From IMG/VR virus record IMGVR_UViG_3300027857_000052, positions 1 through 27,884 of that record: a DNA stretch of 27,884 bases. One strand, given 5' to 3'. The translations under genes were made by a program, and so were the position numbers. The notes under the pieces are model-generated. The model searched no databases. It had not been told where the DNA came from and saw only the letters and a list, made by a program, of their open reading frames with translations. The stretch is from a virus. Within the stretch, counting starts at the first letter, position 1; every line of letters starts with the position of its first letter. Below are positions 2,734 to 16,273 of this stretch, in pieces.

Positions 2734-3432
2734 ATGCCCCGGCAGCGTTCCCGCGCCCCGGGGCCGACCGATCCACCCTTCTGGAAAGGGACCGATGTGG
2801 TCCACATTAACCATGCCGATGTGCTCGGCTGCGGCGCGTTCAACGCCGACATGCCGGATCGAGACCGAGGTCTCGCGGAACTCTTGGACACGCTGGCAGA
2901 TGACCCAGCCAAGCGGGAGATCTCGATCGTCGCCATGCAGGCGGCGAGCATCGGATTTGACCTTGCGGACGAAGCGGCCTTCAACATCGTTGTAGCGACC
3001 GGCCGTCGTTGGCACGAAGCCGGCGAGGAGATGCGAGTGCTCCTCTTTCCTACCCGAACTGCGGAGCCGAGGACTGCACAGGTCCAGCCGGAGCGCGGTC
3101 ACGCGCCCATCGTCTACTACATGCGCCTCGGGGACATCGTAAAGATAGGCACCACGACGAACGTCGCGAAGCGGGCAGGCAGCATCAATCCGGAAGGCGT
3201 GATGGCCGTCGAGTTCGGCGCCGTGGATGTCGAGCGGGCTCGCCACAACCAGTTCATCGATCTTCACCTACATGGCGAATGGTTCCGGCTGGACGCCACC
3301 CTGGGCTCGCACGTCATTGAGGTGCGAGCCGCCTTCGAGGCTGCGACAGGAGAGACGACCGAGGCCTGGCTCGCCCGAATGCGGACCCCCGGTGCCGAGC
3401 GCGGCAAACGGCGGAAGCCCGTGCGGAGCTAA
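2734..3432 (+). CDS. MUG113 / GIY-YIG-like nuclease-fold protein
   Basis: 232 aa, starting at an ATG preceded by AGGAG at good spacing. The C-terminal half (about residues 126-205) matches the MUG113/T5orf172 branch of the GIY-YIG superfamily: a YYMRLGDIVKIGTT segment (Y128, Y129, K137, G139), then NVAKR with R147, then VERARHNQF with a conserved Glu and His, ending in the family signature HGEWF. GIY-YIG domains cut DNA, but many MUG113 members are uncharacterised and their activity is uncertain. The N-terminal 120 residues are of unknown function. In phages such genes are often accessory or homing-type. It begins a rightward pair with the HTH gene 10 bp downstream. Confidence 0.75.
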   Translation: MPRQRSRAPGPTDPPFWKGTDVVHINHADVLGCGAFNADMPDRDRGLAELLDTLADDPAKREISIVAMQAASIGFDLADEAAFNIVVATGRRWHEAGEEMRVLLFPTRTAEPRTAQVQPERGHAPIVYYMRLGDIVKIGTTTNVAKRAGSINPEGVMAVEFGAVDVERARHNQFIDLHLHGEWFRLDATLGSHVIEVRAAFEAATGETTEAWLARMRTPGAERGKRRKPVRS

Positions 3433-4293: not shown

Positions 4294-4770
4294 ATGGGAG
4301 CCCCCGCGGGTCTTTACAATCTAATCCGGTCCAGCGTCGCCACCAGCACCGCGATCACCGTCAACCAGGTGCTCGTACCGGCTGCCGCCTCGGCGGAGTT
4401 TACCCGCGCTTGGTGCAACCAGGACTCGGTCACCACGACCAACCAGACCCGCATCCAGCTGAACCAGAACTCCACCGCGTGCACCGTGACCAGCCAGACG
4501 CCGTTCCCGGCGCAGAAGTCGATGCAGGCGTCGAAGTGTGTCGGCGGTACCTCGGCGACCGGTATCACGGCGACGATCGAGGGCACCGTGACGGGCACCT
4601 GGTGGCAGGAAGGATTCAACATCGTCAACGGCATCCTCTATCTTCCGGTGCCGGAGGCCCGCTGGATCCTCGTCGGCCAGGCGTCCGGCTTCGCCGCGCT
4701 GAAGTTCCCCGGCGCCCCGGCCAGCGCGTCCTATACGACCGCTTTGGAGTGGTTGGAAAGTGCGGGGTGA
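4294..4770 (+). CDS. Putative virion structural protein (158 aa)
   Basis: The ATG at 4294 follows AAAGGAG at ideal spacing. The product is rich in Thr, Ser, Ala and Asn with alternating beta-strand patterns (STAITVNQVLVPAA, TRIQLNQNSTACTVTS, TATIEGTVTGTWW), typical of small decoration or fibre-associated virion proteins; no enzyme motif is seen. Three Cys residues occur in the middle. It opens the rightward accessory virion module and its stop overlaps the start of the 20-codon micro-ORF by GTGA. Function is inferred from composition and position only. Confidence 0.6.
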   Translation: MGAPAGLYNLIRSSVATSTAITVNQVLVPAAASAEFTRAWCNQDSVTTTNQTRIQLNQNSTACTVTSQTPFPAQKSMQASKCVGGTSATGITATIEGTVTGTWWQEGFNIVNGILYLPVPEARWILVGQASGFAALKFPGAPASASYTTALEWLESAG

Positions 4771-4829: not shown

Positions 4830-5314
4830 CGACTCCGGTGCCGGAGCTTGAGGTCCACCGCAACTGGTGCATCGAAGAGCCGGACGTGCTACTCGACCGG
4901 GTCCGGCAGTCATTCACCTACGGACCCGGCGAGAACCGTGCCACCGGCCAGTTCTACGCGGCCGGTGAGCAGAAGTGGGTACCGGCGCTTGCGGTCCGCG
5001 GCCCCGAACTGCTCGACGACCTGGCAGTACGGTTCGGCCGATTCACGATCGTTCACTTCCAGGCGTACCGCAACGGCTCCGGCTGTGACTGGCACGCCGA
5101 CGACCCGTTCGACGCGGCGGCTGTCCTTTCCCTCGGGGTGACCCGCACCTTCGGGATCCGCCGGCCCGGCGTGGACCCGCAGTGGATCCCTGTACGCCAC
5201 GGAGATCTGGTGTTCATGCCATCGGGTTTCCAGCAGGCTTGGCAGCACTGCGTGCCCGTAGAAGACATTCCCGGTGAGCGCTGCTCGCTGGTGTTCCGAA
5301 CAGTGAGGAGATAA
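4826..5314 (+). CDS. AlkB-type 2-oxoglutarate/Fe(II) dioxygenase
   Basis: 162 aa, from GTG 4826. The Fe(II) triad is complete: H90-A-D92 (CDWHADD) and distal H141 (QQAWQHCVP). The 2-oxoglutarate-binding pair appears as R152-CSLVF-R158, close to the RxSLxFR motif of AlkB and its ALKBH2/3 relatives. GDLVFMPSGFQ before the distal His is also family-typical. AlkB proteins oxidatively remove alkyl groups from nucleic-acid bases; some phage members are thought to reverse damage or modify bases. At 162 aa it is shorter than E. coli AlkB, covering only the catalytic core. Its place among virion genes is odd. Repair or base modification of phage DNA is inferred. Confidence 0.85.
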   Translation: MTTPVPELEVHRNWCIEEPDVLLDRVRQSFTYGPGENRATGQFYAAGEQKWVPALAVRGPELLDDLAVRFGRFTIVHFQAYRNGSGCDWHADDPFDAAAVLSLGVTRTFGIRRPGVDPQWIPVRHGDLVFMPSGFQQAWQHCVPVEDIPGERCSLVFRTVRR

Positions 5315-5318
5315 CCCG

Positions 5319-5621
5319 GTGAGCAACGCGATCGTGTCCACCGCCGCCCGGGTCACCCTGCCCGACGGCCGCCTCGCCGCCACCATCGACGAGGTACCGG
5401 TCGGCGGTGGCACGCAGGTCAAGACCGTTGACGGGGAGAAGGTCGAGACCGTCCACGACTCGTCGAAGGTGTACCACCTTCGGCTGATCAGTCTCGACCG
5501 GTCTGTACCGGACGAGCTGCGCGAGTTCAGCGACTACGACGAGGCAGTGGCGGCCGGCGTTGCGTACGCCGACCGGCTCGAGCAGTCCGCCGCGCAGGCC
5601 CTGGCCGACCTGAAGGCGTGA
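5319..5621 (+). CDS. Hypothetical protein (100 aa)
   Basis: GTG 5319 follows GAGGAG at good spacing, 4 bp after the AlkB-like gene, so the two are probably co-translated. The first two thirds look beta-rich (ARVTLPDGRLAATIDEVPV; KVYHLRLISLDRSV). The last third is an acidic amphipathic helix (DYDEAVAAGVAYADRLEQSAAQALADL). No family is recognised. It could be a virion component or a partner of the dioxygenase; position is the only evidence. Confidence 0.55.
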   Translation: MSNAIVSTAARVTLPDGRLAATIDEVPVGGGTQVKTVDGEKVETVHDSSKVYHLRLISLDRSVPDELREFSDYDEAVAAGVAYADRLEQSAAQALADLKA

Positions 5622-5628
5622 GCCTGCG

Positions 5629-5961
5629 GTGCCGAACTTCGCCGGTGCGGTGCTGCTGAAACCGCCGGAGACCAAGCAGTCGTACGAGCGTAAGCAGCTC
5701 ACAAACCTGATCCGGGTCGGCGGGAAACTCGCCGTCCTCGGCGTGGAGGACGGCCGCCGCGCGATGGGCTGGTGGCATGTCGTGCGGCCGGGCACGTTCA
5801 ACACACCGATAAGTAACTCGTGGGGGCCGGATCAGCAGGGCGACAACCTGGTGTACGGCAAGTCCCTGTGCGGCAAGACGAACATCATAAGCAACGGCTA
5901 CCCGGCGGATTGGCGCCCACCGAAGGGCACACTTTGCCCGGCCTGCTCCGAACTGCTCTGA
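5629..5961 (+). CDS. Small zinc-binding hypothetical protein (110 aa)
   Basis: The GTG start at 5629 lies 7 bp after the previous stop; its SD is weak. A His in GWWHVV (about residue 50), a Cys in SLCGK and a terminal CPAC make a His/Cys3 set, an arrangement common in small zinc-finger proteins of actinobacterial phages. The order is His, spacer with a Gly/Asn-rich loop, CG, then CxxC near the C terminus. Molecular role is unknown. It continues the closely spaced rightward run. Confidence 0.55.
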   Translation: MPNFAGAVLLKPPETKQSYERKQLTNLIRVGGKLAVLGVEDGRRAMGWWHVVRPGTFNTPISNSWGPDQQGDNLVYGKSLCGKTNIISNGYPADWRPPKGTLCPACSELL

Positions 5962-5977: not shown

Positions 5978-6316
5978 GTGGGAACTGTCATCCTGCCCAC
6001 CTCGCCGTGGACGTTCTACGCCGTGTCCTCCGACGACGGCTTGGGCACCCTGTGGCTCGCGTTCACCGTCACGTTCACGGGCACGTGGGCGCCAGCCACG
6101 GCCCTGACCGGTGGCCAGGTGTTCCGCGCCGCGGCGTCGTCGTACACGCGGGTGGCGATCGGTCCGCTCAACACCGACGGGTCCATCCCGACCGGCACGA
6201 AGGTTGTGACGGTGCCGCTGGGAACGACCAACTTCACCGCCAATCAACTGCACGCCGCTGGACTGAATACGGTCGCTGACATCACCGGGGCGCCGCAGAT
6301 CACCGCCCTGCCCTGA
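5978..6316 (+). CDS. Putative virion structural protein (112 aa)
   Basis: The GTG start at 5978 follows AGGAG. The sequence is dominated by alternating hydrophobic beta-strand segments (LWLAFTVTFTGTW, TKVVTVPLGTTNFTA) with many Thr residues and no charged catalytic motifs. This suits a small beta-sandwich virion component. It is followed closely by the large repeat protein and may be part of the same fibre or decoration structure. The assignment rests on composition and neighbours. Confidence 0.55.
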   Translation: MGTVILPTSPWTFYAVSSDDGLGTLWLAFTVTFTGTWAPATALTGGQVFRAAASSYTRVAIGPLNTDGSIPTGTKVVTVPLGTTNFTANQLHAAGLNTVADITGAPQITALP

Positions 6317-6341
6317 CCCACCGGCGCGGGGGGTCTGAGCG

Positions 6342-9300
6342 GTGACGATCAGTGAGGACACCGCCAATCAGCCTTCCCCGGTCCATATCACCACCACCTC
6401 GGGCACGACCGGGTCGTTCAGCCCGCAGGCGGCCACGCTGCTGGTGGCGATGCTGGTCGGTGACGGCCCGGTCACCGCCGCCGAGACGGGATCCGTTTCC
6501 GACTCCGGCAGCCACACCTGGACCCGGCTCGTCCAGTCCAACACGCACGCGTCGGGTGTCAACGCCATCGGCGGGTTCTGCGAAGTCTGGGTCACCTACC
6601 TCAGCTCGGCCCCCGGGTCGATCACGGTCACCGGGTCGTGGACGCCCACCAGCGGCGCGGCCGCCGGTAACCTCGTCGTCCGGTCGCTACTCGGCGCGGC
6701 ATCAACCCAAACCGGGGTTACGGCCACCGCCGCGAACAACGGGTCGAACACGATCAACCCGACGGTGACGCTGACCCCCACCCAGGTCGGGTCATGGGTG
6801 TACGGGTGCGCGCTGGACTACACCACCAACTCGACGCTGACGGCCAATGGCAGCACGACCAGCATCGACCAGTTCAACGACTCCACCAACGGGGACACCT
6901 GGGCGACGTTCAAAGGCGCGGCGGCCACCACCACCCTCACATCAACGACGTTCGGATACACGAACGCCGCCGCCGCCTACCAGTTGGCGGCCGTTGAGAT
7001 CCTGCCCGCCGCGACATCAATCCCGTGGAACCCGCAGCGCACCACCCTGCCCACCGACCCGGGCACGTCGTGGTGGATCCAGCGGGACCGCCGCGACGCG
7101 AACACCGTCGCCACCCCGGCGAATCCGCTGCCCTCACCCCTGGACACGGCGTGGCAAGCCGACGCGAACTACTGGCACCTGTACGCAGACGCGGGCAACA
7201 CCGGTGGCCGGTCGTGGATGCCGCAGCAGCGGCCCTATATCTCCGATCCGAGCCTGCTCGCCGGCAACCCCGCTGATCCGCTGCTCGTGGCCGGCGGGGT
7301 GGGCGGCGACACGTGGCGTCGGTACGCGGTGCCCGACTACACCGACCGCCGCCTGGTCCCCGCGCAGCGACCGTACGTCTCCGACCCGAACCTCCTGACC
7401 ACCGCCCTGCTGGAAAACGAACTGCTCGGTGGTGCGGACGATCTCGCCCGGCACCGACACGCCGGCGTGTATACAGATCGCCGATTCGTTCCTCAGCAGC
7501 GCGCGTACGTGTCTGACCCGAACCTGTTGGCAACGGCGTTGCTTGAAGGGCCGCTCCTTGGTGGGGCCGATGACCTCACCCGGCATCGGGCGGCAGCCGA
7601 GTATATTGATCAGCGCCTCGTTCCTCGGCAGCGCCTGTACATCTCCGATCCGCTGCTCCTGACAACCGCCCTGCTTGAGTCTCCACTCCTGGGCGGCGCG
7701 GACGACCTGGCCCGGCACGCGAACACGTCTGTGTACCTGGATCGCAGGTTGGTCCCGCAGCAGCGTCCGTACGTGTCGGATCCGTCTCTCCTCGCGACGG
7801 CCCTGCTCGAGTCGCCGCTTCTCGGTGGTGCGGATGATCTGACTCGCCACGCGAACGTGTCGACCTACCTCGACCGGCGCTTGGTGCCCCAGCAACGGCC
7901 GTACGTGTCGGACCCGCTGCTGTTGACGACGGCTCTGCTGGAGTCGCCTCTGTTGGGTGGGTTCGACGACACCGCGCGGCACCAGTCCGCAGCCGAGCAA
8001 GTTGACCGGCGTGAGGTGCCGCAGCAGCGGATCTACATTTCCCCACCCGGCCTGTTGGACACCGCCGAGCTGGAGAACGAACTGCTCGGCGGGGCGACGA
8101 CCGGGCTGCGCTCAGCCACCCCCGCCACCCACGCAGACCGCCGCCTCGTACCGCAGCAGCGCGCCTACATCTCCACGGTGGGCCTGCTGGACACGGCCCT
8201 GTTGGAGTCGCCCCTGCTGGGTGAGGCCACCACCCCGCTGCGCCGGGGCGCGGCGGTCACGAACCCCGCCGTGTGGTGGATGCCGCACCAGCCCACCTTC
8301 CCGGGGCCGCTCGACCAGGCCCTCCTCGAAACCCCGCTGCTGGGTGCGGCGGAGGACCTGCGTCGCCGGCAGACCGGCGCATACCAGGACCGCCGCCTCG
8401 TTCCCGACCAGCGGCTCTACATCAGCGGGGTTGGCCAACTCGACACCGCCCTCCTCGAGTCGCCCCTACTCGGGCAGGCCACGATCAGCACCCAGTACCT
8501 GGTGCCGGCCACCCACAGCCCACGCTGGTGGATGCCGCAGCAACCCGCCCGGCAAACGTGGTACTTCGACGCCGGCCCGGGGACACCACCCCTCACCCTC
8601 GCCTGGGGTGCGGACGGAAACCTCGTCCTCCTGTACAACACCGCCGGGTGGCAGCCTGACCGGCGCCTCGTTCCGCAGCAGCGGTCCTATATCAGCGACC
8701 CGTCGTTCTACCCGGTCGTCGCCCCCATCGACCCGCTGACCGTGGCGTGGGGTGCGGGCGGCCCCTACTGGCACCTGTACAACACGGCCGCCGACCAGAT
8801 TGACCGGAGGCTGGTTCCGCAGCAACGGGCGTACATTTCCGACCCCACCCTCCTCAGCACCGCCCTGCTGGAAGGTGTTCTCCTCGGCGGGGCGGACGAC
8901 CGCCCCCGCCGGTGGCTGACCGCCGCCACCCACACAGACCGGCGGCAGGTGCCGCAGCAACGCACCAACATCGATCCGCTGCTCCTGACAACCGCCCTGT
9001 TGGAAAGCCCCTTACTCGGCGCGGCGGATGACCTGGCCCGGCACGCGCTGCTCTCGGCGTACCTGGACCGGCGGCTTGTTCCTGCCCAGCGCGCCTACAT
9101 CTCCCCGCCGGGGCTGCTCGACACCGCGTTGCTCGAAACCCCGCTCCTCGGCGGCGCGGACGATCTGCAACGCCGGTTCCTGACCGCGGTCGAGCTCGCC
9201 GACCGGAGGCTGGTTCCGCAGCAGCGCGTCTACTTCGACCCGAGCCTGTTGGCGACCGCGCTTCTGGAGTCGCCCCTGCTTGGGGGTGCCACCACCTGGA

Positions 9301-9767
9301 CCCGCCACGGACCGGCCACCCACACAGACAGGCGCGCCGTACCGCAGCAGCGGCCCTATGTCAGCAACCCGGACCTGCTCGCCACGGCCCTCCTCGAATC
9401 CCCGCTCCTCGGGGCGGTAGACAGTCTGCTGCGTCACGCCACCTGGTTCACCAACCCACCCGCCGGTGGTCAGCAGGCCGCCCGCTACGACCAGGCCCCG
9501 TTCACCCCGCCCACCAACCCGGCGGATCCGCTGCTGGTCTCCGGTGGTGTGGGTGGCGACACGTGGCGCCGCTACCAGCTGCCCGGGTACGGGTGGCGCC
9601 CCCTGCTGCTCATCCAGCAGCGCACCCCCACCGCATCCCAGGGCACCATCCGGGACCTGATCCTCGTCCTCGGCCAACCCGCCGGGAAGTGGCAGATCGG
9701 TGGCGTCACCCGCTCGGTGTGGCAGGTCAGCGACGCGATCGCCAAATGGACGATCGGGGAGGTCTGA
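6342..9767 (+). CDS. Large repeat protein, probable phage fibre or surface protein (1141 aa)
   Basis: GTG 6342 follows a G-rich SD. Residues 1-230 form a Thr/Ser-rich beta domain like those of phage surface proteins. From about residue 335 to 1032 there are sixteen tandem units of about 44 residues, each opening with DRRLVPQQRxYISDP and continuing with LLxTALLESPLLGGADD. Units 8 and 10 open with WWMPxQP instead. The array is flanked by two copies of NPADPLLVxGGVGGDTWRRY (about residues 311 and 1063), acting like caps. The C terminus has a WQIGG/WQVSD/WTIGE triplet. No enzyme motif is seen. It sits just upstream of the terminase, an unusual place for a fibre gene. I know no named family for this unit. 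Confidence 0.75.
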   Translation: MTISEDTANQPSPVHITTTSGTTGSFSPQAATLLVAMLVGDGPVTAAETGSVSDSGSHTWTRLVQSNTHASGVNAIGGFCEVWVTYLSSAPGSITVTGSWTPTSGAAAGNLVVRSLLGAASTQTGVTATAANNGSNTINPTVTLTPTQVGSWVYGCALDYTTNSTLTANGSTTSIDQFNDSTNGDTWATFKGAAATTTLTSTTFGYTNAAAAYQLAAVEILPAATSIPWNPQRTTLPTDPGTSWWIQRDRRDANTVATPANPLPSPLDTAWQADANYWHLYADAGNTGGRSWMPQQRPYISDPSLLAGNPADPLLVAGGVGGDTWRRYAVPDYTDRRLVPAQRPYVSDPNLLTTALLENELLGGADDLARHRHAGVYTDRRFVPQQRAYVSDPNLLATALLEGPLLGGADDLTRHRAAAEYIDQRLVPRQRLYISDPLLLTTALLESPLLGGADDLARHANTSVYLDRRLVPQQRPYVSDPSLLATALLESPLLGGADDLTRHANVSTYLDRRLVPQQRPYVSDPLLLTTALLESPLLGGFDDTARHQSAAEQVDRREVPQQRIYISPPGLLDTAELENELLGGATTGLRSATPATHADRRLVPQQRAYISTVGLLDTALLESPLLGEATTPLRRGAAVTNPAVWWMPHQPTFPGPLDQALLETPLLGAAEDLRRRQTGAYQDRRLVPDQRLYISGVGQLDTALLESPLLGQATISTQYLVPATHSPRWWMPQQPARQTWYFDAGPGTPPLTLAWGADGNLVLLYNTAGWQPDRRLVPQQRSYISDPSFYPVVAPIDPLTVAWGAGGPYWHLYNTAADQIDRRLVPQQRAYISDPTLLSTALLEGVLLGGADDRPRRWLTAATHTDRRQVPQQRTNIDPLLLTTALLESPLLGAADDLARHALLSAYLDRRLVPAQRAYISPPGLLDTALLETPLLGGADDLQRRFLTAVELADRRLVPQQRVYFDPSLLATALLESPLLGGATTWTRHGPATHTDRRAVPQQRPYVSNPDLLATALLESPLLGAVDSLLRHATWFTNPPAGGQQAARYDQAPFTPPTNPADPLLVSGGVGGDTWRRYQLPGYGWRPLLLIQQRTPTASQGTIRDLILVLGQPAGKWQIGGVTRSVWQVSDAIAKWTIGEV
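7344..9440 (+). repeat. Tandem array of sixteen about 132-bp coding repeats
   Basis: Each unit encodes about 44 residues, starting at the DRR triplet (first at 7344, last at 9327). Protein identity between units 1-5 is high. DNA identity is visibly lower, because the same residues use different synonymous codons from unit to unit, especially in LLESPLLGG. The array is in frame throughout and is not a CRISPR or transposon. Confidence 0.85.
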
Positions 9768-9768
9768 G

Positions 9769-10086
9769 TTGCTGACCATCGCCGCCGCGTCCCTGGAGTA
9801 CGTGCGGGTACCAGTCACCGCCACCGCCGCTGGCCTACCCGTGGACCCAACCAGCGACTCGGTGGCGATGGCGTTCATGCCGAACCCCACCACCCAACCC
9901 GGGTCGGGGGACTGGCACACCGCCTCGTGGGACACGGGCACCTTCGGCGGCAGGTACATCGCCCAGTGCCTCATCGGCCCGGGTGGGGGTGTGCAACTGA
10001 ACCCGGCCACCTGGTGGGTATGGGTGAAGATCGTCGACAGCCCCGAAGTACCCGTCCGGGCCGCCGGCACCCTCCAAATCATCTGA
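9769..10086 (+). CDS. Putative virion protein with beta-sandwich character (105 aa)
   Basis: I start it at TTG 9769, one base after the repeat-protein stop, because GGGGAGG lies upstream at good spacing and the protein from there (MLTIAAASLEYVRVPVTA...) is coherent. The pattern of strands, the central TWWVWVKI and the terminal DSPEVPVRAAGTLQII resemble small Ig-like proteins seen near virion genes in actinobacterial prophages. Function is unknown. Its stop codon lies within a small hairpin that precedes the terminase genes. Confidence 0.6.
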   Translation: MLTIAAASLEYVRVPVTATAAGLPVDPTSDSVAMAFMPNPTTQPGSGDWHTASWDTGTFGGRYIAQCLIGPGGGVQLNPATWWVWVKIVDSPEVPVRAAGTLQII

Positions 10087-10186: not shown

Positions 10187-10711
10187 ATGGCCAGGCCAAC
10201 CAAAGCCCAACGGGTCACCATCGTGCAGCGCCGCGCCGCGGCCGTGACCATGCGGCAGCAAGGCGCGGACTGGCAGACCATCGCCGACAAGCTTGGCTAC
10301 AAGACGCGCGGCGCCGCCTGCCAGGACGTGAACCGCGCACTCGAGCAGGCCGTCGCCGAACAGGCCACCAGCGTCGAAGCCCTCCGCCAGCAGGAACTGA
10401 ACCGCCTCGACGAACTGTGGGCCGACGCGTACGCCATCCTGAAGCGACGGCACCTGACCGTCAACCAGGGCAGGGTCATCCTCGACCCTGACACGGGGGA
10501 GAAACTCCGCGACGATGCTCCCCGCCTTCAAGCCATCGACCGCCTGTTGAAGATCCAGGAGAGGCGGGCGAAGTACCTCGGGCTCGACGCCCCCACGAAG
10601 GTGGAGGCGATCACCATTGACGCGATCGATGCTGAGATCGCCCGCCTCGTCGCCGAGCTTGACGGCGCTGAAGCTGGCGAAGCTGAAGGAGCTGAGGCAC
10701 CTTCAAGCTGA
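10187..10711 (+). CDS. terS: Terminase small subunit (TerS-like)
   Basis: 174 aa, starting at ATG 10187 behind AAGGAAC. Residues 1-50 carry a helix-turn-helix (MRQQGADWQTIADKLGYKTRGAACQDVNRAL) of the kind TerS uses to recognise packaging sites. A long helical oligomerisation region follows (QQELNRLDELWADAYAIL; LQAIDRLLKIQERRAKYLGLD), then an acidic Glu/Ala-rich tail. TerS forms a ring that recruits phage DNA to TerL. The gene lies directly before and overlaps terL by about 95 bp in another frame, which strongly supports the assignment. Confidence 0.75.
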   Translation: MARPTKAQRVTIVQRRAAAVTMRQQGADWQTIADKLGYKTRGAACQDVNRALEQAVAEQATSVEALRQQELNRLDELWADAYAILKRRHLTVNQGRVILDPDTGEKLRDDAPRLQAIDRLLKIQERRAKYLGLDAPTKVEAITIDAIDAEIARLVAELDGAEAGEAEGAEAPSS

Positions 10712-12317
10712 GGTTGCGCAGCGCCGCCAGCTGACCTCAACCCGGACGTGGCCCAGCCCCGGCGACCTCGCACGGGCGTTGACCCCCACAACCATCCAAA
10801 CCCCAGCCCTCGATGTTGTTGACGACGCCATCCGGTGGGCGTACACCACCAAGGCCGCACGGCTGATCGTGTCGCTGCCCCCGCAGGAGGGAAAGAGCGA
10901 AAGGGTCACCAAGACCGGTTCGCTGTGGGCACTGATCAGGGACCCCCAGCTGCGGATCGGTATCGTCTCGTACGCCCAGTCGCTGGCTGAGGGCTTCGGC
11001 CGGGACATCCGCAACTGGGTCACCACCTACAACGGTGACGACGGATCCCTCGACCTCGGGTTGCGCATTGCCCGGGACAACGGGTCGGCCCGCCGGTGGC
11101 AGTTGTCCGGCCACCGCGGCGGGGTCATCTGCGTCGGCATCGGATCGGGTCTGACGGGCCGCCCGCTTGACGCGCTGGTCATCGACGATCCGTTCGCTGA
11201 CCGGATCCAGGCCGCGTCCGCCTACTACCGGGACCGGGTGTGGGACTGGTGGCGGGCGGTCGGATCCACCCGCCTCGCCCCCGGCGCCCCGGTGATCGTG
11301 ATCCTGACCCGGTGGCATGAGGACGACCTCGCCGGCCGGCTGGTCGCGGCGGAGGACGGGGACCGGTGGCGGGTCGTCAACATTCCCGCCCTCGCCGATC
11401 ACGATCCGGCGAAAGGCCAAACCGACCCGTTGGGTCGGCAACCCGGCGAGTGGTTGCAGTCCGCGCGGGGCCGCAGCGTCGCCGAGTGGGAAGCGATCCG
11501 CATCCAGGCCGGTGTTCGGGTGTTCACCGCCCTGTACCAGGGCCGGCCGTCACCGGACGCGGGGAATGTGTGGCAGCGTCAGTGGTGGCGCCGCTACTCG
11601 GTGCCCCTGTGGTCGCAGCACCCGACTATCCCCGACGCGTACCGGGTCGACGAGTACGACGAGATGGTCATGTCGTGGGACATGGCGTTCAAGGACACGA
11701 AGTCGTCGGACTATGTTGTTGGCCAGGTGTGGTGCCGCCGCGGCGCGAACGTGTACCTGCTTGACCAGGTGCACAAGCGGCTGTCGTTCACCGACACCCT
11801 CGTCGCGTTCAAGGCGCTGGTGGCCCGGTGGCCGCAGGCCACCGGGAAGTACGTGGAAGACAAAGCCAACGGCACCGCGATCATTGACACCCTGAAGTCG
11901 AAGATTCCCGGCATCGTTGCCCTGTCCCCCACGGAAAGCAAGTACGCGCGGGCGAATGCGGTCGCACCGGTCGTGGAAGCCGGCAACGTGTTTCTGCCTG
12001 AGGCGGAGATCGCCCTGTTCGATCCTGAGGAACTGGTCACCGAAGCGGCGGACTTCCCGAACGGCGCCCACGACGACCAGGTTGACGCGACAAGTCAGGC
12101 GTTGGCGCAGATGCTGCTCGACGGCACCGGGGCGCAGGCGTGGATCGACTACGTGCGCCGCAAGGCGCAGACGGTGACCGCAACCGTTCCCGACCCGGCC
12201 GCTGCGCCCTCACCTGAACCGCACGCCCCGGCTGGGGAGGCGCCACCCGAAGACCCCGCCACCGCCCGTAAACGTGCCCGGGACGCCGCTTTCCGGGAGC
12301 AGCAGCAGCGCCGATAG
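10617..12317 (+). CDS. terL: Terminase large subunit (ATPase/nuclease)
   Basis: 566 aa. The ATPase half shows a Walker A variant (SLPPQEGKSE, K93), Walker B (LVIDDPF, D190/D191) and a coupling segment (ILTRWHEDD). The nuclease half shows the RNase H-like acidic set: D355 in SWDMAF, E414 in YVEDKANG and D486/D487 in AHDDQVDA. It powers DNA translocation into the procapsid and cuts concatemers. The C-terminal 60 residues are Pro-rich and disordered. TTG 10617 has the best SD (GGAGG, 9 bp before), giving a 95-bp overlap with terS; ATG 10629 or TTG 10659 are alternatives. The stop TAG overlaps the GTG of the portal gene. Confidence 0.92.
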   Translation: MTRSMLRSPASSPSLTALKLAKLKELRHLQAEVAQRRQLTSTRTWPSPGDLARALTPTTIQTPALDVVDDAIRWAYTTKAARLIVSLPPQEGKSERVTKTGSLWALIRDPQLRIGIVSYAQSLAEGFGRDIRNWVTTYNGDDGSLDLGLRIARDNGSARRWQLSGHRGGVICVGIGSGLTGRPLDALVIDDPFADRIQAASAYYRDRVWDWWRAVGSTRLAPGAPVIVILTRWHEDDLAGRLVAAEDGDRWRVVNIPALADHDPAKGQTDPLGRQPGEWLQSARGRSVAEWEAIRIQAGVRVFTALYQGRPSPDAGNVWQRQWWRRYSVPLWSQHPTIPDAYRVDEYDEMVMSWDMAFKDTKSSDYVVGQVWCRRGANVYLLDQVHKRLSFTDTLVAFKALVARWPQATGKYVEDKANGTAIIDTLKSKIPGIVALSPTESKYARANAVAPVVEAGNVFLPEAEIALFDPEELVTEAADFPNGAHDDQVDATSQALAQMLLDGTGAQAWIDYVRRKAQTVTATVPDPAAAPSPEPHAPAGEAPPEDPATARKRARDAAFREQQQRR

Positions 12318-15300
12318 TGGGGGTGCCGTCCCGCATGGGTGTCCGCTCCCGCCTCGCCGACCTCGGCACCGTACTGGTCAAGCGGTTCGGGCAGAACAAG
12401 CCCACCGACGTCGCCGCGGGTGAAACCGCCGCGGGGATGGATGTCACCCGCCCGTTCTCCCCGGGCGAGCCGATCGGCCCGTACGACGGGTACTCCCGCA
12501 CTCCCCGGTCCCGGGACTTCGTCCCGGGCTACAACATTGCGGCCCGCCCCCGCAGCCACGAACGGGTCGCCTTCGAAACCCTAAAAGGCCTCGTCGAAGC
12601 GTACGACGTGGCGCAAACCTGCATCTGGCACCGCATCGACTCGATCCGGGCACTGGAATGGTCCCTGGTTCCGGTGCGCGGGTTCTCCGGCGACGCGGAC
12701 ACGGCCATCGACCGGGGCATGGCAGCCCTGGAAAAGCCGGACCGGAAAACCCCATTCCCGAACTGGTTGGCGAAGTGGCTGTACGACGTGTTGGCCTACG
12801 ACGCCGGCACCTTGTACCGGATGCGCAACCGGGGCGGCCGGCCCATCGGGCTGAAGGTCGTGGACGGCACCCTCGTCGCGCCGCTGCTCGACTACTGGGG
12901 TGACTCCCCCGAACCGCCCGCCGAGGCGTACGTGCAGTACGTGCACGGCCTGCCGTGGAACTGGCTGACCCGCGACGACCTCGTGTACGAGCCGTTCCGG
13001 CCGGTCGCGAACAGCCCCTACGGCCGCGCCCCGCTCGAGTCGGTGCTGCTGAACGCGAACACGGACCTGCGGTTCCAGGCCTACTTCCTGCAACGGTTCA
13101 CCGAGGGCAACATTCCTGAGGCGTTCGCGTCGGCCCCGGAAACCTGGTCACCGAACCAGATTGAGCAGTTCCAGGAGTACTGGGACGCGTTCATGCTCGG
13201 CGACCAGTCGGTAAAGCATCAGATCCGGTGGATTCCCGGCGGGTCGAGCATCGCGTGGAGTAACGAGAAGGACTTCCAGGACCACTTCTCCCTGTTCTTG
13301 ATGCGTAAGACCTGCGCGGCTTTTCATGTGGTGCCCGCCGACCTGGGGTTCACCGAGAGCGTCAACCGGTCCTCCGGCGAGACGCAGGCCGACGTTCAGC
13401 ACCGCGTCGGGGACCTGCCCCTCATCGCCCACATCCAAGGCATCCTCACCACCTTCCTCCGCAAGGACCTGGGCCTTCCGCTGCAGTTCCTGTTCGACAC
13501 CGGGCAGGAAAAGGACGACCGGTTGGCGCAGGCCCAGGCGTGGGAGATTTACATCTCCTCCGGCATGGCGTCCCCGGACGAGGGCCGGGAGAAGCTCCTC
13601 GGCCTGCCCGGGGATCCGCAGCGCCCCACGCCCCGCTTCTACGCCACGAACCGGTTGGGCCCGGTGCCGCTCCTGTCGATCCAGGGCGTGTCAGGCAAGG
13701 TCGATTCGGAAACGTTCGGCCCCGCCCCGGACCAGCCGGTCCTGTACCAGCCGTTCGTCGCCGCACCCGGTGTGGTTCCCGCCGCTGGTACGACCGACGC
13801 GAAAGCGTCCCTCGCCGCGGAGGACGCCTATCAGCTTCAGGTCCGTGACCAGTTGGAAGGCCAAACCGCGCAGCCGGGTCCGGTCGCGAAAGACGGCACC
13901 CCCACGGTGGGCGTGACTGCGGAAACGGGCATCGTCAGCTACGACCTGAACGGCCGCAGCGGCAGCGCCGGGCGGCACCGAGCGCCCGACGACGAAGACG
14001 ACCCGGACGAGGCGCAGCGCGCCGAACTGGTAAAGCGGGAACTCGCCGCGTTCCGCAACTTCCGCGCCGCCCGCCGCCGCAGCGGCGCGTGGCGGGACTT
14101 CACGTTCGTGCACACCGACCCGGTCACCGGGCATCGCCTCAACGACGCCGGCCGCCTCGCTGTGCGTAAGGCCGCCGGGCAGGTCGCCGTGGCCGGGCTA
14201 GCGGTACGCGCCGCAGACACCGGCCGCGTGCTGATGCTGCAACGCGCCCTGGACGACGACGACCCGGCCGGCGGCACTCTCGAGTTCCCCGGCGGCCACA
14301 TCGAAGAGGGCGAGACACCGTTGCGCGCGGCGTGGCGGGAGTGGAGCGAGGAGACGGGTTGCATACCCCCGCCGGGCGAGTGTACCGGCGAGTGGACCAG
14401 CTCCAACGACATCTATCAGGGCATCGTCTGGACCGTCACCAACGAGGCGTGCGTGCCGGTACGCGGCGACGCCCAGGTCGGTAACCCAGACGACCCCGAT
14501 GGCGACTGCGTCGAAGCGGTCATGTGGGTCGATCCCGATCACCTCGTCGACAACCCAATGGTCCGACCGGAACTCGCCGCAGATCTGGTACTGGTCCTCA
14601 CCGCACTTGGTGGGGACCCGCCCGGCGAACTGGTGAAAGCGGGTGGTGGCCCAAAAGACCCGGCCCCGGCCCCCGACTGGCCGGGGTGGGAATGGGACCA
14701 GCAGGTCGCTGACCACTGGGCACCCCTGATCGCCGACGCCACCGGCAGCGCCCTGACCGAACAGCGCGCCGCGCAGGTGGTGGCCGCCTACCAGTCCACC
14801 GACCAGCCCAGCGACGACACCAGCCGGGACGCGGCGGTCGCCACCGTGGCGCTGTGGCTGGCCAGGCAGGACATCACCGCCACACCACAACTCACCCAGA
14901 CCCTGACCGGGTTGTACGCCGACGCGTACCTCATCGGCGCCGCGTCCGCCAGCGCACTGCTTGATGGGGGGAAACCGGACCTGGGTGGGTGGCGGCCCGG
15001 TGACACCGCCACCACCCAGGACCGCTTGGCCCAGCTCGACGGCACACCGGGACTGGCGGACCTGCTCGACACCGCACCCGACATGGCCGCCGGCATCCTG
15101 GACACCCGCACCGAAGCGGCCGCCCGGGTACTGCTCGACGGCACCGCCGCCGGGGACAGCACCGCCAACATGACCGCTGGCCTCCTCGCCGCGTTCAGCA
15201 ACATCGGGGGCGCCCGAACCGTCGCGGTCACCGAAGTGGTCGCCGCCTCAAGTGTCGCGTCGATGGCCCTGTACGTAGCGCGGGGTGTGGAGTGGGGCCG

Positions 15301-16273
15301 CTGGGTCACCGACCCGTCCGGCAACGTGTGCGCCCTGTGCATCGCGAACGCCGATGCGGGGCCGGTGCGGATCGGGGACGCATACCCGTCCGGGCACTCC
15401 GAAAGCCCAGCCCACCCTCACTGCCGGTGCGAAGTGGTTCCCGCCGGCACCCGAACCGCGGGCGGCTTCGGCGGTGCAGCCGCCGCTGTGGACGACGAGG
15501 AAGCGGCCGCGACCGAGTCCGAAGCCGAGGCGGGCGCCGCTGAAGCCGTCGCCACCACTGAAGCGTCCCTCGAGTCCAGCGTCGCCACCGGCGTCACCGA
15601 CCGGGAAGTCCTCGGCGGTGGGGTGTCCGCCGAAACTAGCCTCGTCACGTTCGCCGACGGCACCCGGGCTGTGGAGAAAGTCGCCAGGTCGTACGCGGAG
15701 CGGGAACCCGACGAGGCCACCGACGCGGAAACCCTCGCCGCGAAACTCGGCCGCGCGATCGGTGTGCAGGTACCCGACGCGGTGCGCACCGCCGACAACA
15801 CCGTGTACCTCGCCTACGTGGCCGACGCCGAAACGGGCATGGAGAAAGCCCTCACCGACCGGGCCCTCGCCGAGCTCGCTGACACCACCGCCGGCCGGCA
15901 GTTGGGCCTGTTCGACCTGCTCACCCAGAACACTGACCGCAACACCGGCAACTGGCTGGTTGACGGTGGTGGCGGCCTGTGGGGCATTGACCACGGGTGG
16001 GCGTTCAACGAGTTCTCCACCACCGAGGGCATGCAGATCGTCACCGGGCGGAACCCGTTCGCGGGTGGCCTACTCCAGATGAATGACGCCGGCGAGGTCA
16101 CAGGTGGTTCCGGCGGGTTCTCCCTCGTCGACCTCGACCACCTCCGCACCGCCCTCACCGGTCTTCAAGGCGACTTCACCAGCCTGGGCCGGGAAAGCTG
16201 GTACCAGCAGACCCTCGACCGGTTGGACTGGTTGGCGCAGCACGCCACGGGCGATGGGACACTGTTCGGATGA
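12317..16273 (+). CDS. Portal-Nudix-MuF-kinase-like fusion protein (1318 aa)
   Basis: Residues about 1-455 are an HK97-like portal, the dodecameric DNA gate (FLMRKTCAAFHVVPADLGF; AWEIYISSGMASPDEGREKL). A disordered linker follows. Residues about 621-764 are a Nudix hydrolase with an intact box: G660-x5-E666-x7-R674-E675-W-S-E678-E679-T-G681. Residues about 790-1045 are a helical MuF-type head-morphogenesis domain ending in C1005-x2-C1008 and HPHCRC (C1036, C1038). After an acidic linker, residues about 1090-1300 resemble phosphatidylinositol 3/4-kinase folds: K1121, NTDRNTGNW (D1207, N1212) and IDHGWAFN (D1225). Portal-MuF links are known; the added Nudix and kinase-like parts are unusual. 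One frame is open throughout. GTG 12317 overlaps the terL stop; ATG 12335 has better SD spacing. Confidence 0.88.
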   Translation: MGVPSRMGVRSRLADLGTVLVKRFGQNKPTDVAAGETAAGMDVTRPFSPGEPIGPYDGYSRTPRSRDFVPGYNIAARPRSHERVAFETLKGLVEAYDVAQTCIWHRIDSIRALEWSLVPVRGFSGDADTAIDRGMAALEKPDRKTPFPNWLAKWLYDVLAYDAGTLYRMRNRGGRPIGLKVVDGTLVAPLLDYWGDSPEPPAEAYVQYVHGLPWNWLTRDDLVYEPFRPVANSPYGRAPLESVLLNANTDLRFQAYFLQRFTEGNIPEAFASAPETWSPNQIEQFQEYWDAFMLGDQSVKHQIRWIPGGSSIAWSNEKDFQDHFSLFLMRKTCAAFHVVPADLGFTESVNRSSGETQADVQHRVGDLPLIAHIQGILTTFLRKDLGLPLQFLFDTGQEKDDRLAQAQAWEIYISSGMASPDEGREKLLGLPGDPQRPTPRFYATNRLGPVPLLSIQGVSGKVDSETFGPAPDQPVLYQPFVAAPGVVPAAGTTDAKASLAAEDAYQLQVRDQLEGQTAQPGPVAKDGTPTVGVTAETGIVSYDLNGRSGSAGRHRAPDDEDDPDEAQRAELVKRELAAFRNFRAARRRSGAWRDFTFVHTDPVTGHRLNDAGRLAVRKAAGQVAVAGLAVRAADTGRVLMLQRALDDDDPAGGTLEFPGGHIEEGETPLRAAWREWSEETGCIPPPGECTGEWTSSNDIYQGIVWTVTNEACVPVRGDAQVGNPDDPDGDCVEAVMWVDPDHLVDNPMVRPELAADLVLVLTALGGDPPGELVKAGGGPKDPAPAPDWPGWEWDQQVADHWAPLIADATGSALTEQRAAQVVAAYQSTDQPSDDTSRDAAVATVALWLARQDITATPQLTQTLTGLYADAYLIGAASASALLDGGKPDLGGWRPGDTATTQDRLAQLDGTPGLADLLDTAPDMAAGILDTRTEAAARVLLDGTAAGDSTANMTAGLLAAFSNIGGARTVAVTEVVAASSVASMALYVARGVEWGRWVTDPSGNVCALCIANADAGPVRIGDAYPSGHSESPAHPHCRCEVVPAGTRTAGGFGGAAAAVDDEEAAATESEAEAGAAEAVATTEASLESSVATGVTDREVLGGGVSAETSLVTFADGTRAVEKVARSYAEREPDEATDAETLAAKLGRAIGVQVPDAVRTADNTVYLAYVADAETGMEKALTDRALAELADTTAGRQLGLFDLLTQNTDRNTGNWLVDGGGGLWGIDHGWAFNEFSTTEGMQIVTGRNPFAGGLLQMNDAGEVTGGSGGFSLVDLDHLRTALTGLQGDFTSLGRESWYQQTLDRLDWLAQHATGDGTLFG

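Follow-up and report, generated by a model that had tools for sequence, protein, structure and literature searches.

The repeat gene studied here (6342..9767, + strand; GTG start, 1141-aa ORF) lies in a 27,884-nucleotide viral contig, the whole of which we call the window, and it is the final member of a conserved, portable cassette found in or beside structural genes. In our judgment the chances are evenly poised that its product is an accessory virion protein that combines an exchangeable N-terminal binder with an array acting as spacer, is most likely held at the head-neck, travels in a portable cassette, and resembles the neck passage structure (NPS) of lactococcal phages. Such a product would serve adhesion or decoration in uncultivated actinophage-like tailed phages; the N-terminal beta domain would be an exchangeable binding domain, and the array would be a multivalent spacer tethering this domain to the particle, with the head-neck junction as the likeliest site. 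If this reading is right, the cassette would be a mobile means by which tailed phages equip their particles with surface-binding parts, so far seen only in uncultivated phages. A repeat unit without a known family or structure would also gain a testable home, in a cassette compact enough for piecewise reconstitution.

The protein begins with a beta-sandwich region predicted by AlphaFold2 (residues 1–220; 6342..7001, + strand) and continues into 17 units of ~44 residues that were delimited by an iterated unit HMM (residues 293–1079; 7218..9578, + strand) and also analyzed by autocorrelation and pS/pN. A sequence-only reading of the window had reported this open reading frame and a regular repeat array, and both are real: self-identity at a lag of 44 residues was 0.393 over residues 331–1040, compared with a maximum over best lags of 0.136 in 1000 residue shuffles, which rules out chance or simple low complexity as the origin of the array. 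The same reading had described sixteen 44-residue units. The array stood, but the HMM found 17 units, and the exact pitch was confined to seven successive unit starts (residues 335–599); elsewhere the pitch differs because the second halves of the units come in three interchangeable forms (...LLxTALLExPLLGGADDLxRH, ...DPLTVAWGAGGxYWHLYN, and ...DPLLVxGGVGGDTWRRY). The short motifs DRRxVPQQR, DPxLL, and PLLGG are invariant, with variable spacing, and the WWMPxQP segments, which may mark kinks or binding points, are variant first halves of the ordinary unit. The duplicated sequence NPADPLLV...GGVGGDTWRRY (residues ~307–328 and ~1057–1079) had been taken for a pair of matching end caps. The duplication is genuine, but both copies are ordinary variant units, and we rejected the cap assignment because relatives have the same variant at internal positions of their arrays or close to the end, as DPLVVGGGVGGDQWRRY in contig L011 and as DADPLLLAAAVGGDLWRRV in the arrays of L013 and L014.

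Between units, the mean synonymous difference was 0.63 and the mean non-synonymous difference was 0.26 (11 gap-free units), and adjacent pairs were also diverged (synonymous difference 0.49–0.73). These values indicate that the array is old and that its units are maintained by purifying selection on the protein. Recent slippage was excluded as the origin of the array, as synonymous differences are large even for neighboring units. Leucine accounts for 123 of 710 array residues. Separately, residues 335–1040 contain 65 arginines among 706 residues with no lysine and no cysteine, and Lys-poor arrays also occur in most relatives.

Profile searches of Pfam, NCBIfam, and PHROGs gave no convincing match for the repeat, in agreement with the earlier view that it can be assigned to no named family. 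The best Pfam match (E 0.018) was below cut-off, NCBIfam gave no match, and a sequence search of the PDB gave no convincing one. Membership in phrog_36833 (E 1.8e-4) was rejected, as no single stretch passes alone and the match is not common to four relatives. In tblastn searches, which like our other database searches may omit records very close to the window's own, the repeat protein and its relatives matched nothing among 50,697 phage records and 72,556 plasmids, and P158, PZn, and a P158-like protein (P158 and PZn are cassette proteins described below) likewise matched none of the phage records. Two GTDB genome scans limited to a few short patterns found no relative of the repeat, a mixed alignment of distant units yielded no pattern usable for searching, and we found no described repeat of this type in the literature.

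Relatives, which are known solely from IMG/VR, were gathered with three independent probes (the repeat protein or its units, P158, and PZn), giving 21 contigs. Profile searches showed that the cassette genes of these contigs share one strand and an unvarying order: P158, an oxygenase in 10 contigs, P100, PZn, and the repeat protein. P158 (158 aa; 4294..4770, + strand) is 67–90% identical to most relatives and is present in 20 of the 21 contigs allowing for contig ends (19 by HMM). Its AlphaFold2 model is beta-rich with low confidence (pLDDT 52), too weak to sustain its best match, to the HFTV1 turret (Z 7.3), which we discounted. The optional member is an AlkB-like 2OG-Fe(II) oxygenase (4838..5314, + strand; phrog_21963) that matches PF13532 with an E of 4e-8 and a score of 34.1 bits (cut-off 31.2), and its HxD...H...RxxxxxR residues are invariant in the six copies aligned. 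P100 (100 aa; 5319..5621, + strand), conserved by alignment and in the gene-order table, had no family match in profile searches including NCBIfam. PZn (110 aa; 5629..5961, + strand) has invariant WWHV, CG, and CPAC motifs and is probably a small protein that binds zinc; independent searches started from it recover the same contigs. Two further genes adjoin the repeat gene: a variable 112-aa protein (5978..6316, + strand) between PZn and the repeat gene, with no family match and no clustering with proteins of other contigs, and a 105-aa protein just 3' of the repeat gene (9769..10086, + strand), which had no family match and resembles, by eye, a lone Ig-like domain. A TerS-like gene starts at 10187 and the TerL gene at 10617.

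The repeat HMM matched in 16 contigs, with 5–17 units per array and three visible in the truncated contig L007. Contig L027 has a diverged array seen by eye (YWxQRR...DQS...PDLExELTH) after P158 and PZn. The N-terminal beta domains of relatives appear exchangeable and share 28–45% identity. In the L022 protein (5989-9264), the beta domain is duplicated, with its second copy in mid-array. In L029 (9519-11579), unrelated ~18-residue repeats (APxAGxAxVTxAA) occupy the slot between a P158 homologue and the adaptor gene.

The AlphaFold2 model covers residues 1–600 as a monomer from a shallow 13-row alignment. It predicts the N-terminal beta domain that had been proposed (residues ~24–220, pLDDT mostly 55–76), followed by array units with a pLDDT of 25–40 and short helices only, giving no support for the monomer as a rigid rod or as a defined solenoid; a monomer prediction from so shallow an alignment cannot separate array disorder from an oligomeric shaft. 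A hydrophobic-moment test on the unit showed no signal for a helix or for a strand. In the PDB, the N-domain aligned best to BppA chains of phage Tuc2009 (5e7t_G, Z 7.9; 5e7f_G, Z 7.6) over 110–111 residues with rmsd values of 3.3–3.7 (110 residues and 3.3 for 5e7t_G), a Z score that, for a weak model, is below the level that would exclude a common arrangement. Foldseek matched the N-domain to several uncharacterized Caudovirales proteins in BFVD with a probability of 1.0, one of them carrying a Gly-rich domain annotation, and a Foldseek search of the PDB with the residue 1–600 model returned nothing significant. The array model bears directly on an alternative to which we assign a minor but appreciable chance, namely that each unit is a short linear motif binding a single copy of a repeating protein of the virion or cassette (capsid lattice, tail tube, or P158), and that the protein is not a fibre but a flexible multivalent strap that clamps or decorates the particle. 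Low array pLDDT with short helices, invariant motifs at variable spacing in arrays of 5–17 units, and a P158 that is always close by and more conserved than the array are all consistent with a strap. However, so leucine-rich an array would be unusual for a disordered linker, the low pLDDT comes from a monomer and 13 alignment rows, and L029 retains P158 although an unrelated repeat protein fills the slot.

Several observations argue for the preferred reading, an accessory virion protein held at the head-neck. First, the gene order of the cassette is fixed. Second, the next gene matches a gp6-type head-tail adaptor profile in 11 of the 16 repeat-bearing contigs. The adaptors of L012, L028, and L029 (the last outside the 16) reach the PF05135 cut-off and that of L008 falls below it, and those of L005, L021, L024, and L022, in which PF05135 was not detected, were assigned by profile. 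The repeat protein is not itself an adaptor of this type, and the adaptors next to it carry an N-terminal extension, typically Ig-like and recognized via Big_1 and filamin matches. Third, cassette-bearing contigs have a longer interval between the major capsid protein (MCP) and adaptor genes, which is 427 bp in the isolate Mcklovin and 446 bp in the isolate Sonali but 5,808 bp in L015 and 7,082 bp in L016. With ~0.43 kb in its absence and 5.8–7.1 kb in its presence, the module appears to have been inserted among the head-neck genes. The L015 capsid gene, which precedes the cassette, has homologues among the capsid genes of Gordonia and Mycobacterium phages.

The window itself is an exception, as its cassette lies ahead of terS and its own MCP-adaptor interval has no cassette; the location before terS and terL, which had been called unusual, is indeed so, because in most relatives the gene sits between the capsid and adaptor genes. 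The backbone of the window resembles that of Arthrobacter phage Sonali (Sonalivirus), with 55% identity for TerL, 47% for the portal portion of the portal-MuF fusion, 41% for the MCP, and 45% for the protease, and with the same gene order (TerL, portal-MuF fusion, protease, MCP, adaptor). In Sonali the terminase is the second gene, and neither the repeat protein nor P158 has a tblastn match there. A curious feature, unrelated to the cassette, is a NUDIX hydrolase domain inside the portal-MuF fusion of the window (12317-16273; PF00293, residues 624–745, E 2e-16), which is likewise present in Sonali gp3. A T5orf172/MUG113 (GIY-YIG-like) nuclease-domain gene (2734-3432) lies near the integrase gene.

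Other observations weaken the head-neck adhesion reading. In L009, L013, and L014, the array is directly followed not by an adaptor gene but by a different gene, stopper-like by eye. An hhalign comparison showed no significant similarity between the adaptor Ig domains and either the 105-aa protein or the C-terminus of L027, and thus a shared anchor domain, or a BppU_N-like identity for all three as suggested by eye, is a guess only. The modest BppA alignment and an array without a confident fold weigh in the same direction, as do cassettes near tail-fibre or endolysin genes. The G007 cassette begins after tail-tip genes, and that of G010, where no tape measure was recognized, lies ahead of a GH25-like endolysin gene (roles read by eye in both).

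Evidence for adhesion comes from neighboring genes. Some contigs encode extra proteins between PZn and the adaptor, including a GH16 plus fn3 protein in L010, a beta-helix-like protein with a weak pre-neck appendage match in L008, beta-helix-like proteins by eye in L014 and L022, a Gly-rich protein in L004, and a beta-sandwich-like protein in L013/L014. An N-terminal tag, R.[SE]LR[WY], is common to four of these passengers from three lineages (L017:10609, L013:683 and 1391, L041:5035) whose predicted folds differ (GH16, beta-sandwich-like, beta-helix-like), and it may be a docking peptide. The adhesion reading draws on these neighbors and their tags, on the second beta domain in L022, on the alignment of the N-domain to BppA, which is the template reported for NPS carbohydrate-binding modules (CBMs), and on the purifying selection acting on the units.

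The abundance of adhesin-like passengers is also what would be expected if the repeat protein belonged to the tail fibre system that serves as primary receptor binder and the placement of its gene ahead of capsid, neck, or terminase genes were structurally meaningless, and the tail-tip and endolysin surroundings in G007 and G010 fit that proposal. We nevertheless regard it as unlikely, as most contigs place the cassette within the head-neck block and at least G001 also encodes, in a distinct block after the tape measure gene, a 612-aa protein at the fibre position. It is less probable still that the cassette is moron-like, non-virion cargo whose products work inside the host cell or at its surface: the AlkB-like oxygenase, the CPxC protein, and the nearby glycosyltransferase genes (upstream in several contigs, by phrog_34859 match) look non-structural, and the cassette has changed position among genomes, but its usual same-strand place within the head-neck block, the beta-domain-plus-repeat plan, and the adhesin and hydrolase neighbors speak against it. 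Given the AlkB-type RxxxxxR spacing of the oxygenase, nucleic acid would be its first expected substrate, and for that reason modification of the array by this enzyme was kept as an outside case only; we consider it improbable that the array consists of short docking motifs forming a virion scaffold, produced by a self-sufficient cassette and chemically modified by its oxygenase and a nearby glycosyltransferase, into which tagged adhesins and hydrolases plug.

Among known systems, the NPS is reported to be a non-essential, portal-vertex-associated structure of lactococcal phages (PMC6669499; PMC4493119) that carries exchangeable carbohydrate-binding or beta-helix domains, and BppA is reported as template for the CBMs of three NPS groups (PMC6669499). 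In TP901-1, the gene for the NPS is located after those for the baseplate (PMC4493119). Like the NPS of the 936 and P335 phages, for example ORF51 of TP901-1, the preferred accessory virion protein would join exchangeable beta-rich or beta-helix binding domains to a long spacer in a tailed phage. In the NPS, a BppU-like anchor at the N-terminus is followed by a coiled-coil spacer and then by the binding domain at the C-terminus, whereas our protein has its beta domain at the N-terminus and a different repeat as spacer, with no long helices predicted at the low pLDDT of the array and no helix periodicity in the unit, and in most relatives it is the adaptor that has an Ig-like domain. The N-domain aligns best to BppA rather than BppU, although the weak model would allow another family; it shares only 12% identity with BppA, which itself has no repeat array. 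The NPS would be the nearest precedent for how the repeat protein works, with the likeness residing in the overall plan and the exchangeable binding parts rather than in demonstrated descent.
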